Origin: Azospirillum humicireducens
GTDB taxonomy: Bacteria > Pseudomonadota > Alphaproteobacteria > Azospirillales > Azospirillaceae
Reading direction: 5' to 3'
Assembly (NCBI RefSeq): GCF_001639105.2
Contig: NZ_CP015285.1
Span: 1,046,501-1,110,500 of the forward strand
Length of the DNA stretch: 64,000 nucleotides
A program made the position numbers and the translations under genes. The notes below the pieces were generated by a model that was not told the DNA's origin, ran no database searches, and saw nothing but the letters and a program-made list of their open reading frames with translations. The first letter of the stretch is position 1, and each line of letters starts with the position of its first letter. Of the stretch, positions 15,755 through 19,572 are shown piece by piece.

Positions 15755-18253
15755 ATGGACGCTCGGTTTAAATCTCGCGACATCGAACGCCGCAGCCTGG
15801 ATGTCGACGGCCTGAAACGGTCGTTCCTGGAATGGCTTGTCTATTCGGTCGGCAAGGATGCCCGCGCCGCCACCCGCCGCGACTGGTTCCACACCGTGGC
15901 CCTGGCCGTGCGCGACCGCGTCGTCGACCGTTGGATGGACACGACGCGCAGCTATTATCAGGAAGACGCCAAGCGCGTTTATTATCTTTCCCTGGAATTC
16001 CTGATCGGGCGTCTGCTGACCAACAGCCTGTCGAACCTGGGCATCGTGGATGAATGCCGTCAGGCGCTCGACCGCCTTGGCCTGTCGATGGAGGATGTGG
16101 TCGACGCCGAGCCGGACGCGGCGCTCGGCAACGGCGGCCTCGGCCGTCTCGCCGCCTGCTTCCTGGACAGCATGGCGTCGCAGGGGCTGCCCGGATACGG
16201 CTATGGCATCCGCTACGAGTTCGGCCTGTTCGAGCAGCGGTTCGAGAATGGGTGGCAGGTCGAATATCCGGAACAGTGGCTGCAGTTCGGCAATCCGTGG
16301 GAATTCGCCCGTCCGGAGGTGCTCTACCCGGTCCAGTTCTATGGCCGTGTCGAGGAGTTCCGCGACAGCGTCGGCGAGCGTGCCTATCGCTGGGTCGATG
16401 CCGACCGCGTGCTGGCGATGGCCTATGACACGCCGGTCGTCGGTTTCGGCGGCGAGACGATCAACACGCTGCGCCTGTGGTCGGCCCGCGCCACCCGCGA
16501 CTTCAACTTCGGCCACTTCAACGACGGCGCCTATATGAAGGCGGTCGAGCAGAAGATCCTGTCGGAGAATCTCAGCCGCGTCCTCTATCCCAACGACGCG
16601 ACGGAGACCGGCAAGGAGCTGCGGCTGAAGCAGGAGTATTTCTTCACCTCCGCCTCGCTGCAGGACATCCTGCGCCGTTACCTGCAGCACCACACGACAT
16701 TCGACAACCTGCCCAACAAGGCGGCGATCCAGCTGAACGACACCCATCCGGCCATCGGCATCGCCGAGTTGATGCGCCTGCTGGTCGACCAGCACGCCCT
16801 GCGCTGGGACAATGCGTGGGAGATCACGCGCGCCACCTTCGCCTACACCAACCACACCCTGCTGCCTGAGGCGCTGGAAGCCTGGCCGGTGCGGATGATC
16901 GAGCGGGTGCTGCCGCGCCACATGCAGATCATCTACGAGATCAACGCCAAGTTCCTGAACCGCACCAAGGCGCGGGCCGATGGCGACAATGCCAAGCTGT
17001 CGCGGTTGTCGCTGATCGACGAGCGCGGCGAACGGCGCGTGCGCATGGGCAACCTGGCCTTTCTCGGCTCGCACAAGGTCAACGGTGTGTCGGCCCTGCA
17101 CACCGAGTTGATGAAGCAGACGGTGTTCGCGGACTTCCACCAGGAGTTCCCGGACCGCATCAACAACAAGACCAACGGCATCACTCCGCGCCGCTGGCTG
17201 AAGCAGGCCAACCCGGCCCTGTCCGAACTGATCACCACGCGAATCGGCGAGGGCTGGATCTCCGACCTGTCGCAGATCGCGGCGCTGCGCGAGAAGGCCG
17301 ACGACGTGGTGTTCCGTGAGGAGTTCCGCCGGGCCAAACGCAAGAACAAGAAACGCCTTGCCGCCTATATCACCCGCCAGACCGGCGAGGAGGTGCTGGT
17401 GGACAGCATCTTCGACGTCCAGGTCAAGCGCATGCACGAATACAAGCGCCAGCTGCTGAACGTCCTGCACACCATCGCGCTGTACAATGAGATGCGCGAC
17501 AATCCGACGGTCAGCTGGGTCCCGGTGACCAAGGTGTTCGCCGGCAAGGCGGCGCCGTCCTACCATATGGCCAAGCTGATCATCAAACTGATCAACGACG
17601 TCGCCAAGGTGGTGAACCACGACCCGTCGGTGCACGACAACCTGAAGGTCGTGCTGCTGCCGAACTACAACGTCACCGCCGCCGAGATCATCATCCCGGC
17701 CGCCGACCTGTCGGAGCAGATCTCCACCGCCGGCATGGAGGCGTCGGGCACCGGCAACATGAAGCTGGCGCTCAACGGTGCGCTGACTATCGGCACGCTG
17801 GACGGCGCCAACGTCGAGATCCGCGAGCATGTCGGGCCGGACAACATCTTCATCTTCGGCATGACCGCCGACGAGGTGAACGACCTGCGCGCCAGCGGCG
17901 GCTTCAACCCGCGCGAGGTGATCGCCTCGAACCCCAGCCTGAAGCGGGCGCTCGACATGATCTCCACCGGCGCCTTCTCGCCGGACGACCGCAACCGCTA
18001 CCATCCCATCGTCCAAGCGCTGACCGACGGTGGCGACCATTTCCTGGTGACGGCGGACTTCGCCGACTATTGCCGGGCCCAGGATGCGGCGATGCAGCTG
18101 TACCGCGATTCGGAGGAATGGACCCGCAAGGCCATCCTGAACACCGCCAACATGGGCTGGTTCTCGTCCGACCGTACGGTCAACGAGTATGCCGGGGAGA
18201 TCTGGGACGTACACCCGGTGCATCCGAACCATGACGGCGAAGGGTTCCGGTAA
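15755..18253 (+). CDS. glgP: Glycogen phosphorylase
   Basis: The 832-residue enzyme starts at ATG 15755 behind TCAGGA; an in-frame upstream extension is unlikely to be translated. Signature segments in order are RVYYLSLEFLIGRLLTNSL, DAALGNGGLGRLAACFLDS, GYGIRYEFGLFEQRFENGWQ, NLPNKAAIQLNDTHPAIGI, VKRMHEYKRQLLNVLHTIAL, and EASGTGNMKLALNGALTIGT, where the lysine of GTGNMK (about residue 669) binds pyridoxal phosphate. It releases glucose 1-phosphate from glycogen or maltodextrin with inorganic phosphate. Length matches the family (about 815-840). No glg biosynthesis genes are visible nearby, so it appears to be transcribed alone. Confidence 0.97.
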   Translation: MDARFKSRDIERRSLDVDGLKRSFLEWLVYSVGKDARAATRRDWFHTVALAVRDRVVDRWMDTTRSYYQEDAKRVYYLSLEFLIGRLLTNSLSNLGIVDECRQALDRLGLSMEDVVDAEPDAALGNGGLGRLAACFLDSMASQGLPGYGYGIRYEFGLFEQRFENGWQVEYPEQWLQFGNPWEFARPEVLYPVQFYGRVEEFRDSVGERAYRWVDADRVLAMAYDTPVVGFGGETINTLRLWSARATRDFNFGHFNDGAYMKAVEQKILSENLSRVLYPNDATETGKELRLKQEYFFTSASLQDILRRYLQHHTTFDNLPNKAAIQLNDTHPAIGIAELMRLLVDQHALRWDNAWEITRATFAYTNHTLLPEALEAWPVRMIERVLPRHMQIIYEINAKFLNRTKARADGDNAKLSRLSLIDERGERRVRMGNLAFLGSHKVNGVSALHTELMKQTVFADFHQEFPDRINNKTNGITPRRWLKQANPALSELITTRIGEGWISDLSQIAALREKADDVVFREEFRRAKRKNKKRLAAYITRQTGEEVLVDSIFDVQVKRMHEYKRQLLNVLHTIALYNEMRDNPTVSWVPVTKVFAGKAAPSYHMAKLIIKLINDVAKVVNHDPSVHDNLKVVLLPNYNVTAAEIIIPAADLSEQISTAGMEASGTGNMKLALNGALTIGTLDGANVEIREHVGPDNIFIFGMTADEVNDLRASGGFNPREVIASNPSLKRALDMISTGAFSPDDRNRYHPIVQALTDGGDHFLVTADFADYCRAQDAAMQLYRDSEEWTRKAILNTANMGWFSSDRTVNEYAGEIWDVHPVHPNHDGEGFR

Positions 18254-18265
18254 TCTTCGATCAGG

Positions 18266-18301
18266 CGAATGCGCAGGCGCTTTACAATGTCTGCGCATTC
18301 G
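18266..18301. promoter_or_regulatory. 11-bp inverted repeat around a possible -10 box
   Basis: CGAATGCGCAG (18266-18276) and CTGCGCATTCG (18291-18301) are exact inverted copies with a 14-base spacer that contains TACAAT (18283-18288). Read as DNA it is an operator-like dyad covering a -10 element for the asd leader; read as RNA it is a strong hairpin 13 bases after the glgP stop, but with no T-run. Transcription from this -10 would begin at about 18295, placing GAAGG (18307-18311) and the leader ATG correctly. Confidence 0.45.
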
Positions 18302-18315
18302 GATATGAAGGCGCC

Positions 18316-18393
18316 ATGAACCGCAAGGCCATCACCACCACTACGACCAAAAAAGCGACTCGCTTCGGCGGGAAGCGTCGTGGTGCGTGCTGA
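18316..18393 (+). CDS. Threonine-rich leader peptide of asd
   Basis: A 25-codon frame begins at ATG 18316 behind GAAGG (18307-18311) and ends at TGA 18391-18393. Its centre reads ITTTTTKKAT, with five consecutive threonine codons using three different triplets (ACC ACC ACT ACG ACC), then two lysine codons and a sixth threonine. This is the hallmark of amino-acid attenuation leaders such as E. coli thrL. The next gene, 138 bases downstream, is asd, whose product feeds threonine, lysine and methionine synthesis. The peptide probably has no function beyond letting the ribosome sense charged tRNA-Thr and perhaps tRNA-Lys. It has not been verified experimentally or by comparison here. Confidence 0.7.
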   Translation: MNRKAITTTTTKKATRFGGKRRGAC

Positions 18394-18453
18394 TCGGATC
18401 GACCAGCGTTTCTTCCACGAGGCAGGCCCCGCCGGACAACGGACGGGGCCTCG
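18337..18453 (+). promoter_or_regulatory. Candidate attenuator of asd
   Basis: The Thr codons (ACCA and CGAC around 18337-18347) can pair with GTCGTGGT (18377-18384). TCGTGG in that segment (18378-18383) can instead pair with CCACGA (18415-18420). CCACGA carries the foot of a third hairpin: CGA (18418-18420) with TCG (18451-18453) and GGCCCCG (18425-18431) with CGGGGCC (18444-18450), extended by an inner CCG/CGG. This 1:2, 2:3, 3:4 layout is that of a ribosome-controlled attenuator. The weak point is the poor T-tract after the last stem (TCGTCGTATCC). Confidence 0.5.
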
Positions 18454-18531
18454 TCGTATCCGGGGTCCGCTGTCCGAACGACCGATAGGCCGGTCCGATC
18501 AACAGTGCGATAGACAGGACGGAACCCCGCC

Positions 18532-19572
18532 ATGAGCAGCAGCAACGCCTCCGCTTCCTCCAAGTCCCTCCGCGTCGCCGTGGTCGGCGCCACCGGCGCC
18601 GTCGGCCGCGAGATGGTCAAGGTCCTGCACGACCGCAACTTCCCGGTCGCCGAACTCGGCCTGTTCGCTTCCGAGCGGTCCGCCGGCAAGGTGCAGGATA
18701 CCCCCTATGGCGCCCTGACCCTGAAGGCCTTCGACGCCGCGGTGGTGAAGGGCTATGACGTTGTCCTGCTGGCGGTGTCGGGTGACTTCGCCAAGGCGCA
18801 TGCCAAGGATCTGGCGTCGGCCGGTGCGCTGGTGATCGACAACAGCTCCGCCTTCCGCTACGACGCCGACATCCCGCTGATCGTTCCGGAAATCAACGCC
18901 CACGTCTTCCGCGAGGCGTACGCCGCCGGGTCGCGCCTGATCGCCAACCCGAACTGCACCACGGCCATCGCCGTCGTGGCGCTCGGCCCGCTGCACAAGG
19001 CCTTCGGCATCAAGCGCGCCATCGTCTCCACCTATCAGGCCACCAGCGGCGCCGGCGCCGAGGGCATGGCCGAGCTGGAGGAGCAGACGCGCAACCAGCT
19101 GGATGGCAAGCCGGTCACCAACAGCGTGTTCCGCCACCCGATCCCCTTCAACCTGATCCCCCAGATCGACGCCTTCCAGGAGAACGGCTACACGAAGGAG
19201 GAGATGAAGGTGACGTGGGAGACGCGGAAGATCATGGAGGTTCCGGATCTGCCGGTCAGCTGCACCGCCGTCCGTATTCCGACCTACCGCGCCCACTCCG
19301 AAGCCATCACGCTGGAGACCATCCAGCCGGTTACGCCGGACGCTGCCCGCGCCGTCCTGGCCGATGCCGCCGGCGTGAAGGTGGTGGACGATCCCGCCAA
19401 CGGCGCCTATCCGATGCCGCTGAACGCCACCGGCCAGTATGATGTCGAGGTCGGTCGCATCCGCAACAACATCGTCTTCGGCGATCATGGCCTCGACCTG
19501 TTCGTCTGCGGCGATCAGCTGCTGAAGGGTGCCGCCCTCAACGCGGTGCAGATCGCCGAGCTGGCTCTCTGA
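18532..19572 (+). CDS. asd: Aspartate-semialdehyde dehydrogenase
   Basis: The 346-residue enzyme reduces aspartyl phosphate to aspartate semialdehyde with NADPH, the branch point for lysine, diaminopimelate, threonine and methionine. [19 protein letters not shown] (about residues 12-30) is the nucleotide-binding loop, [19 protein letters not shown] holds the catalytic cysteine at residue 142, [15 protein letters not shown] is the substrate loop, and [16 protein letters not shown] carries the catalytic histidine. Length is normal. The gene sits behind its own 5' region with a threonine-rich leader peptide and alternative hairpins, so its expression is probably set by aminoacyl-tRNA supply. Confidence 0.97.

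Follow-up and report, generated by a model that had tools for sequence, protein, structure and literature searches.

Threonine and lysine are both made via aspartate-semialdehyde dehydrogenase, and the question raised by this locus of Azospirillum humicireducens is whether the gene for this enzyme, asd, is controlled by the translation of a short frame rich in threonine and lysine codons that lies in front of it. In the window, meaning the whole 64,000-nucleotide stretch of DNA that was analysed, asd occupies positions 18532-19572 of the + strand, its product scoring 380 bits on TIGR01296 (asd_B), the cut-off of which is 324. A glycogen phosphorylase gene on the same strand ends upstream at 18253, and a release factor 3 gene is the downstream neighbour. 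The original prediction had described a frame with five Thr codons followed by Lys-Lys, 138 bases before asd, and all of these coordinates hold: the leader peptide frame, MNRKAITTTTTKKATRFGGKRRGAC (18316-18393, + strand; conserved in relatives), runs through 25 codons from the ATG at 18316 to a stop that ends at 18393, leaving a gap of 138 bases to the start codon of asd at 18532. As in an attenuator, the short frame carries codons for products of the pathway, with the putative sensor codons, five for Thr (18334-18348) and then two for Lys (18349-18354; all + strand), falling within what is termed segment 1 below. Judged from its sequence and that of its relatives, the region 18316-18529 is very probably built like a ribosome-mediated attenuator, which would likely activate asd under a shortage of charged tRNA-Thr or tRNA-Lys.

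Conservation of the frame and its alternative helices

The original prediction held that a Thr-rich frame should be conserved before asd in relatives, and it is present in 44 of 45 Azospirillum genomes, these being all 44 that hold this asd, with its start 182 to 216 bases 5' of the gene in every one. The 45th genome is without this asd, having only a 48%-identical copy with no Thr frame before it. This asd is also present in four of the five genomes of the sister genus g13, each time preceded by the frame; the fifth genome lacks both a close Asd and any match to the covariance model described below. A hairpin-pattern search recovered the same scaffold in Azospirillum brasilense, A. oryzae, A. 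picis, A. halopraeferens and others.

The RNA downstream of the sensor codons can be divided into segments with more than one possible partner. Segment 2 (18366-18383, + strand), consisting of CGGCGGG (18366-18372) and TCGTGG (18378-18383), can pair with segment 1 or with segment 3 (18415-18434, + strand), which consists of CCACGA (18415-18420) and the 5' arm of a terminator-like hairpin, including CCCGCCG (18428-18434). This hairpin, 3:4, is GGCCCCGCCGG-ACAA-CGGACGGGGCC, followed by TCGTCGTAT (18425-18450, + strand), and occurs as a single exact copy in its own genome. As segment 3 pairs with either 2 or 4, the antiterminator and the terminator-like hairpin are mutually exclusive, as in known attenuators. 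The original prediction had rightly drawn TCGTGG as pairing either with the Thr codons or with CCACGA, and had placed the hairpin at 18418-18453, within which lies the core of the GC hairpin; its set of helices was incomplete, having missed the main antiterminator helix, CGGCGGG:CCCGCCG.

In an alignment of 36 distinct leaders, out of 48, from Azospirillum and g13, the antiterminator helix 2:3 is paired in 96.3% of cells, against 43-56% when the arms are slid, and helix 1:2 likewise in 96.3%, against 29-64%. The strongest part of 2:3, CGGCGGG:CCCGCCG, forms all seven pairs in 36/36 leaders, one of them as G-U. Compensatory changes are found at columns 70:113 and 82:100 in 2:3, and at columns 33:70, 43:64 and 44:63 in 1:2, with columns 33, 70 and 113 changing together, as mutually exclusive pairing predicts. 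In a comparison that ignores common descent, both helices beat 500/500 shuffles in percentage paired, in doubly changed cells and in covariation score. The number of pairs with double changes was reached by 469/500 shuffles for 2:3 and 48/500 for 1:2, the number of pair types by 500/500 and 492/500, respectively, and one slid version of 2:3 exceeds the true helix in double-change pairs (four versus two). The core of 3:4, an 11-pair helix, is paired in 100% of lettered cells across the 36 sequences, with nine pairs invariant; the terminator arms hardly vary, and therefore covariation says little about this helix. The extension at its foot pairs poorly, in 20% of cells of the 36-leader alignment.

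Ribosome position and the predicted switch

These pairings suggest how translation of the frame might be coupled to expression of asd. A ribosome stalled at the Thr/Lys codons would cover segment 1, leaving CGGCGGG...TCGTGG free for CCACGA...CCCGCCG, and the resulting antiterminator would occupy the 5' arm of the terminator, allowing RNA polymerase to continue into asd. A ribosome that has run past the Thr/Lys codons would cover CGGCGGG, and hence the GC hairpin at 18425-18450 would form, which would stop transcription. We infer the stop in transcription, the response to threonine and lysine, and the leaderless start discussed below.

Folding was predicted with the ribosome masked, assuming that 13 bases past the start of the A-site are covered (10 and 16 were also tried). 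Mean predicted antiterminator pairing in the 36 distinct Azospirillum and g13 leaders is 0.76 with the ribosome at the Thr/Lys codons and 0.32 after them; the corresponding values are 0.83 versus 0.29 in 18 other asd leaders, and 0.72 versus 0.22 in 36 leaders that precede thrS. The sensor codons are placed such that a stalled ribosome would free segment 2: under the 13-base footprint, the predicted boundary is between -3 and +2 codons away from the last of these codons in 90/90 leaders. A 10-base footprint puts two thrS leaders at -7, and a 16-base one gives a range of -4 to +1. The terminator 5' arm is still predicted to be paired upstream in asd leaders folded without any ribosome (means of 0.76 in the 36 leaders and 0.87 in the 18), and therefore, against the textbook picture, default termination in untranslated RNA is not predicted.

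Termination or translation control

The original prediction had conceded a poor U-tract after the hairpin, and poor it is, but it is nevertheless enriched in T: the nine bases after the stem hold 4.23 T on average in Azospirillum and g13, against 0.86 expected (22 distinct sequences), in an interrupted tract. The thrS leaders hold 5.0 versus 2.0 expected (36 distinct sequences), and the 18 other asd leaders, mostly from Roseomonas and its relatives, 0.67 versus 1.5 expected. Hence, with the tract interrupted in Azospirillum and mostly absent in the 18-sequence asd group, the hairpin might not act as an intrinsic terminator in all leaders.

An alternative that takes up this point is that the leader controls the translation of asd, or the access of Rho, rather than intrinsic termination, with a stalled ribosome opening a hairpin at 18461-18529 and the GC hairpin being a mere relay. 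Segment 5 (18461-18475, + strand), comprising CGGGGT (18461-18466) and CTGTCC (18470-18475), is predicted from duplex energy to cover the asd Shine-Dalgarno region (18516-18529, + strand), in which AGGA (18516-18519) overlaps GGACGG (18517-18522) and is followed by ACCCCG (18524-18529). In the window this duplex has 12 pairs and an energy of -20.5 kcal/mol, with 3/100 shuffles as good, and a strand that could cover the Shine-Dalgarno recurs across lineages with differing sequences (GTCTCTC/GAGAGAC, CTCCGTTTG/CAAACGGAG and CCGTCC/GGACGG). The helix also beats shuffles, at -16.9 versus -11.1 kcal/mol in the two genera, -13.4 versus -10.3 in other asd leaders and -14.7 versus -9.6 in thrS leaders; it reaches p<=0.05 in 51/83 sequences, the other 32 falling short. 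These analyses left out loci with no recognised hairpin (four loci) or gene start, those with a spacing outside 35-130 bases, and identical loci, and a few of the gene starts used (L230, L255) are probably misplaced. Together with the poor or absent U-tract in the asd leaders of two groups, this helix argues for translation control. Against it, the same hairpin is followed by a U-rich stretch in thrS leaders and in three asd leaders (L067, L072, L078), and T is enriched fivefold after the stem in Azospirillum. Furthermore, arm 4 may compete for the anti-Shine-Dalgarno strand, with 28/83 sequences in favour, yet its release alters predicted access to the Shine-Dalgarno little, raising it from 0.31 to 0.40 across 33 sequences, and in the window from 0.35 to 0.38, no better than with a shuffled arm 4. 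We therefore regard control of translation in place of termination as unlikely, if still worth serious thought.

The two modes of control might also be combined, in a chain of helices 1:2, 2:3, 3:4, 4:5 and 5:Shine-Dalgarno through which one stalled ribosome would open two locks. Termination would be prevented, and the freed terminator arm GGACGGGG would pull the anti-Shine-Dalgarno strand away, because it mimics the GGACGG of the ribosome site, so that asd would be translated. This chain, in which the scaffold would be a sensor of Thr and Lys before asd and of Thr before thrS in Alpha- and Betaproteobacteria, is a tentative proposal that we think rather doubtful.

The asd leaders of Roseomonas and relatives (L226, L231, L249, L255, L257, L261 and relatives) mostly have no U-tract. 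Stretches of CCCGTCTC in leaders of this type look complementary to the terminator 3' arm and the Shine-Dalgarno region.

The leader peptide and its probable leaderless start

A further alternative to attenuation of transcription, the preferred reading, is that the frame encodes a small protein acting in trans, its position upstream of asd being incidental. That attenuator peptides can act in trans is demonstrated by peTrpL of Sinorhizobium meliloti (PMC7298713, PMC10117765). However, beyond the Thr/Lys run of the present peptide Gly-Gly alone is kept, the remainder of the tail being variable (KRRGAC, PSRGVC, PSDGGVR, LPRGMS), and the codons for Gly-Gly are those that encode CGGCGGG, such that these residues are kept because of the CGGCGGG:CCCGCCG pairing. 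A function in trans is accordingly a very improbable account of the frame.

Upstream of the frame lies a predicted promoter, conserved in relatives, with TTTACA (18281-18286) and TATGAA (18304-18309) separated by a 17-base spacer (18281-18309, + strand), and ending 6 bases 5' of the leader ATG. Of 47 distinct upstreams of Azospirillum and g13, 44 have a promoter-like site whose end lies 5-11 bases 5' of the ATG, against 2% in shuffles. Among the matches listed in the pattern search, such a site precedes the ATG at this distance in 22/35 asd rows, which overlap the Azospirillum set, and in 27/36 thrS rows; shuffles of the three sets give 1.6-2.6%. The ribosome site of the original prediction, AAGG (18308-18311), is present and yet not conserved: Shine-Dalgarno-like 4-mers before the leader are rare, occurring in 8/47 distinct upstreams of the two genera and, among the matches listed, in 3/35 asd and 0/36 thrS rows. 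The promoter-like site is so close to the ATG, at 6 bases, that the leader probably forms the 5' end of the mRNA, and AAGG overlaps the end of the conserved TTTACA-17-TATGAA, so that the ATG is probably the first codon of an mRNA predicted to start at or next to it. From the position of the promoter, transcription would start at the leader ATG, and the leader would be translated without a ribosome site.

Related leaders before asd and thrS

A covariance model built from the 36 distinct leaders matched 67/82 genomes of the family and 59/385 of the class at E 0.1, the weakest matches probably arising by chance. Further matches were fetched, mostly the strongest (20 of 45 family rows and 37 of 71 class rows, six of them elsewhere in Azospirillum genomes), and these 57 divide into 21 that precede asd, 19 that precede thrS and 17 with neither gene downstream, some of the last resembling plain terminators. 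A search of a collection of 84,980 species genomes for the hairpin scaffold in DNA alone found at least 121 matches in at least 120 stretches, with at least 47 before asd, at least 59 before thrS and at least 15 others, two of which (L314, L315) are asd-type leaders with no asd match downstream. Among the matches listed, the loci belong to Alphaproteobacteria and to Betaproteobacteria (Paraburkholderia, Burkholderia, Caballeronia and Andreprevotia). Genes in these loci were named from tblastn comparisons in which one ThrRS and three Asd sequences served as references. The names of three asd and three thrS genes are confirmed by NCBIfam, although one of these thrS genes, truncated where its locus ends, scores below the cut-off.

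The two types of leader differ in their sensor codons. Among the scaffold matches listed, Lys occurs between the first and last Thr of the run in 47/47 asd leaders versus 6/59 thrS leaders. These comprise 81 matches in 80 loci, where the counts are 36/36 versus 4/37 (25/25 versus 3/17 as distinct cores), and 40 matches in 40 further loci, examined only after the claim about Lys had been made, where they are 11/11 versus 2/22. The covariance-model set, which overlaps the scaffold set in genera, gives 32/32 versus 3/19 (Fisher p 1.4e-10, with common descent ignored). Three of the four Lys-containing thrS leaders from the 80 loci are from Inquilinus, and both from the 40 further loci have nearly the same peptide. 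Hence asd leaders likely sense threonine and lysine, and thrS leaders threonine, which strengthens the guarded suggestion of the original prediction that tRNA-Lys might be involved, Lys lying inside the Thr run of every asd leader counted and rarely in that of thrS leaders.

When an Asd tree of 81 rows is labelled by leader, seven changes of label are needed, at least four of them forced by well-supported branches, and Thr/Lys leaders fall on four deep Asd clades. The rows were picked partly by leader, and therefore the tree counts lineages and not frequency.

It is vanishingly improbable that a chance Thr-rich frame stands beside an ordinary terminator of the glycogen phosphorylase gene, for which the position of the hairpin between asd and the end of that gene on the same strand would speak, given the conserved promoter-like site that separates the frame from that gene, the conservation of the frame, the absence of a Thr/Lys frame scoring at least as high as that of the window (8) from 1800 random 450-base windows away from asd leaders (five scored 7), and the presence of the same device before thrS and in other asd lineages. 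The attenuation proposed by the original prediction has gained from the conserved and covarying frame and stems and from the related leader before thrS, and on this comparative evidence we hold it with considerable confidence to be the best reading, ahead of its rivals.

Several loci depart from the simple arrangement of one leader and one gene. In L274 (Azospirillum halopraeferens DSM 3675) and L098, asd and thrS lie in tandem, each with a scaffold leader of its own, and Lys is in the Thr run of the asd leader and not in that of the thrS leader. Thr-run leaders precede a small cysteine-hydrolase-like gene in L215, L216, L224, L247 and L280 (Paraburkholderia, a Burkholderia sp. and Andreprevotia), the gene of L216 having no NCBIfam match, and in L096 a cysteine-hydrolase-like gene is followed by thrS. 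The scaffold at L227:3767-4378, with a leader lacking a Thr run, precedes a gene resembling a homoserine/threonine efflux gene (below the NCBIfam cut-off). The model or scaffold matches L084, L086, L102, L135 and L298 have hydrophobic leader frames without a Thr run, the next gene in the first four reading like a GNAT acetyltransferase, and are perhaps, to judge from these frames, other sensors on the same scaffold. Model matches before other genes in L076, L136, L079 and L082 have similar leader frames (NRNHMTR, NRKHMTR, NKAAMTRSGG and RKNAAMTRSGG), and L139 (E 3.5e-6) lies directly before a dihydrodipicolinate-synthase-like gene of the lysine pathway, with a leader frame that is not Lys-rich.

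Asd and thrS genes without the leader

The genome of A. humicireducens has a second asd copy (46% identity; G000:C1:2118634). A leader of this kind was found neither before this copy nor before the second copies of four relatives, the genes of eight Asd relatives at 55-69% identity, or thrS of the same genome. A TTTT-containing frame before the second copy in L060 is presumably the tail of the upstream gene, and the region before the second copy in L062 has a weak partial match to the model (E 0.27). Among 90 other asd upstreams, which are 30 plus the next 60 best TIGR01296 matches and not a random sample, a Thr/Lys frame was found in eight, with other stems and in several cases then a U-rich terminator; the remaining 82 are without one, and the device is therefore not universal. 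Four Thr-containing frames in this set were dropped as the end of a leuB-like gene, to which we take their motif to belong.

Discussion

The thr operon of Escherichia coli has a well-known attenuator, thrL, represented in Rfam by thr_leader. The asd leader resembles thrL in its short frame with a Thr run, in its predicted antiterminator, which would depend on stalling and compete with a terminator-like hairpin, and in its putative control of an aspartate-pathway gene. It differs in that its target is asd on its own, its second sensor residue is Lys rather than Ile, its mRNA is probably leaderless, and an extra hairpin is predicted over the Shine-Dalgarno. Rfam thr_leader has no match at 17900-19000 of the window even at E 10, and no Rfam family reaches its gathering score in 14 related loci.

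Another alphaproteobacterial leader is trpL/rnTrpL of S. meliloti: PMC10117765 describes a leaderless mRNA starting at the leader AUG, as predicted for asd, although its sensor is Trp and its target trpE. The same paper reports SEP5, a translated frame that lies in the 5' UTR of an "aspartate dehydrogenase" gene of S. meliloti and contains six codons for Thr and three for Lys; it was proposed only as a possible leader peptide and reported to be conserved only in Sinorhizobium. This "aspartate dehydrogenase" gene is probably asd. Hence the view of the original prediction that a Thr leader before asd would be a new arrangement fails as put, a Thr/Lys leader having been suggested earlier in S. 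meliloti (PMC10117765), whereas the hairpins, thrS and genera beyond Sinorhizobium described here are absent from the passages on SEP5. Threonine and asd are absent from the main text of a survey of premature terminators (PMC2965389), and in a study of alphaproteobacterial RNA motifs (PMC1273637) an ilvB leader peptide appears, while neither asd nor thrS occurs. Among the papers listed in our literature search, none dealt with a leader attenuator of asd or thrS in these groups except for SEP5. The asd leader is probably a new form of ribosome-mediated attenuation, partly foreshadowed by SEP5.

What began as a guess from a single genome is now a testable regulatory family, in which one hairpin scaffold is combined with Thr and Lys codons before asd, and with Thr codons before thrS. 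This family spans Alpha- and Betaproteobacteria, and is matched by no Rfam family here. The translated SEP5 frame of S. meliloti may likewise find its explanation in the scaffold, and the leader hints at a reason for which some Alphaproteobacteria have retained two asd genes, only one of them preceded by it. The contrast between asd and thrS constitutes a natural experiment, in which the sensor codons follow the products of the gene that is controlled.
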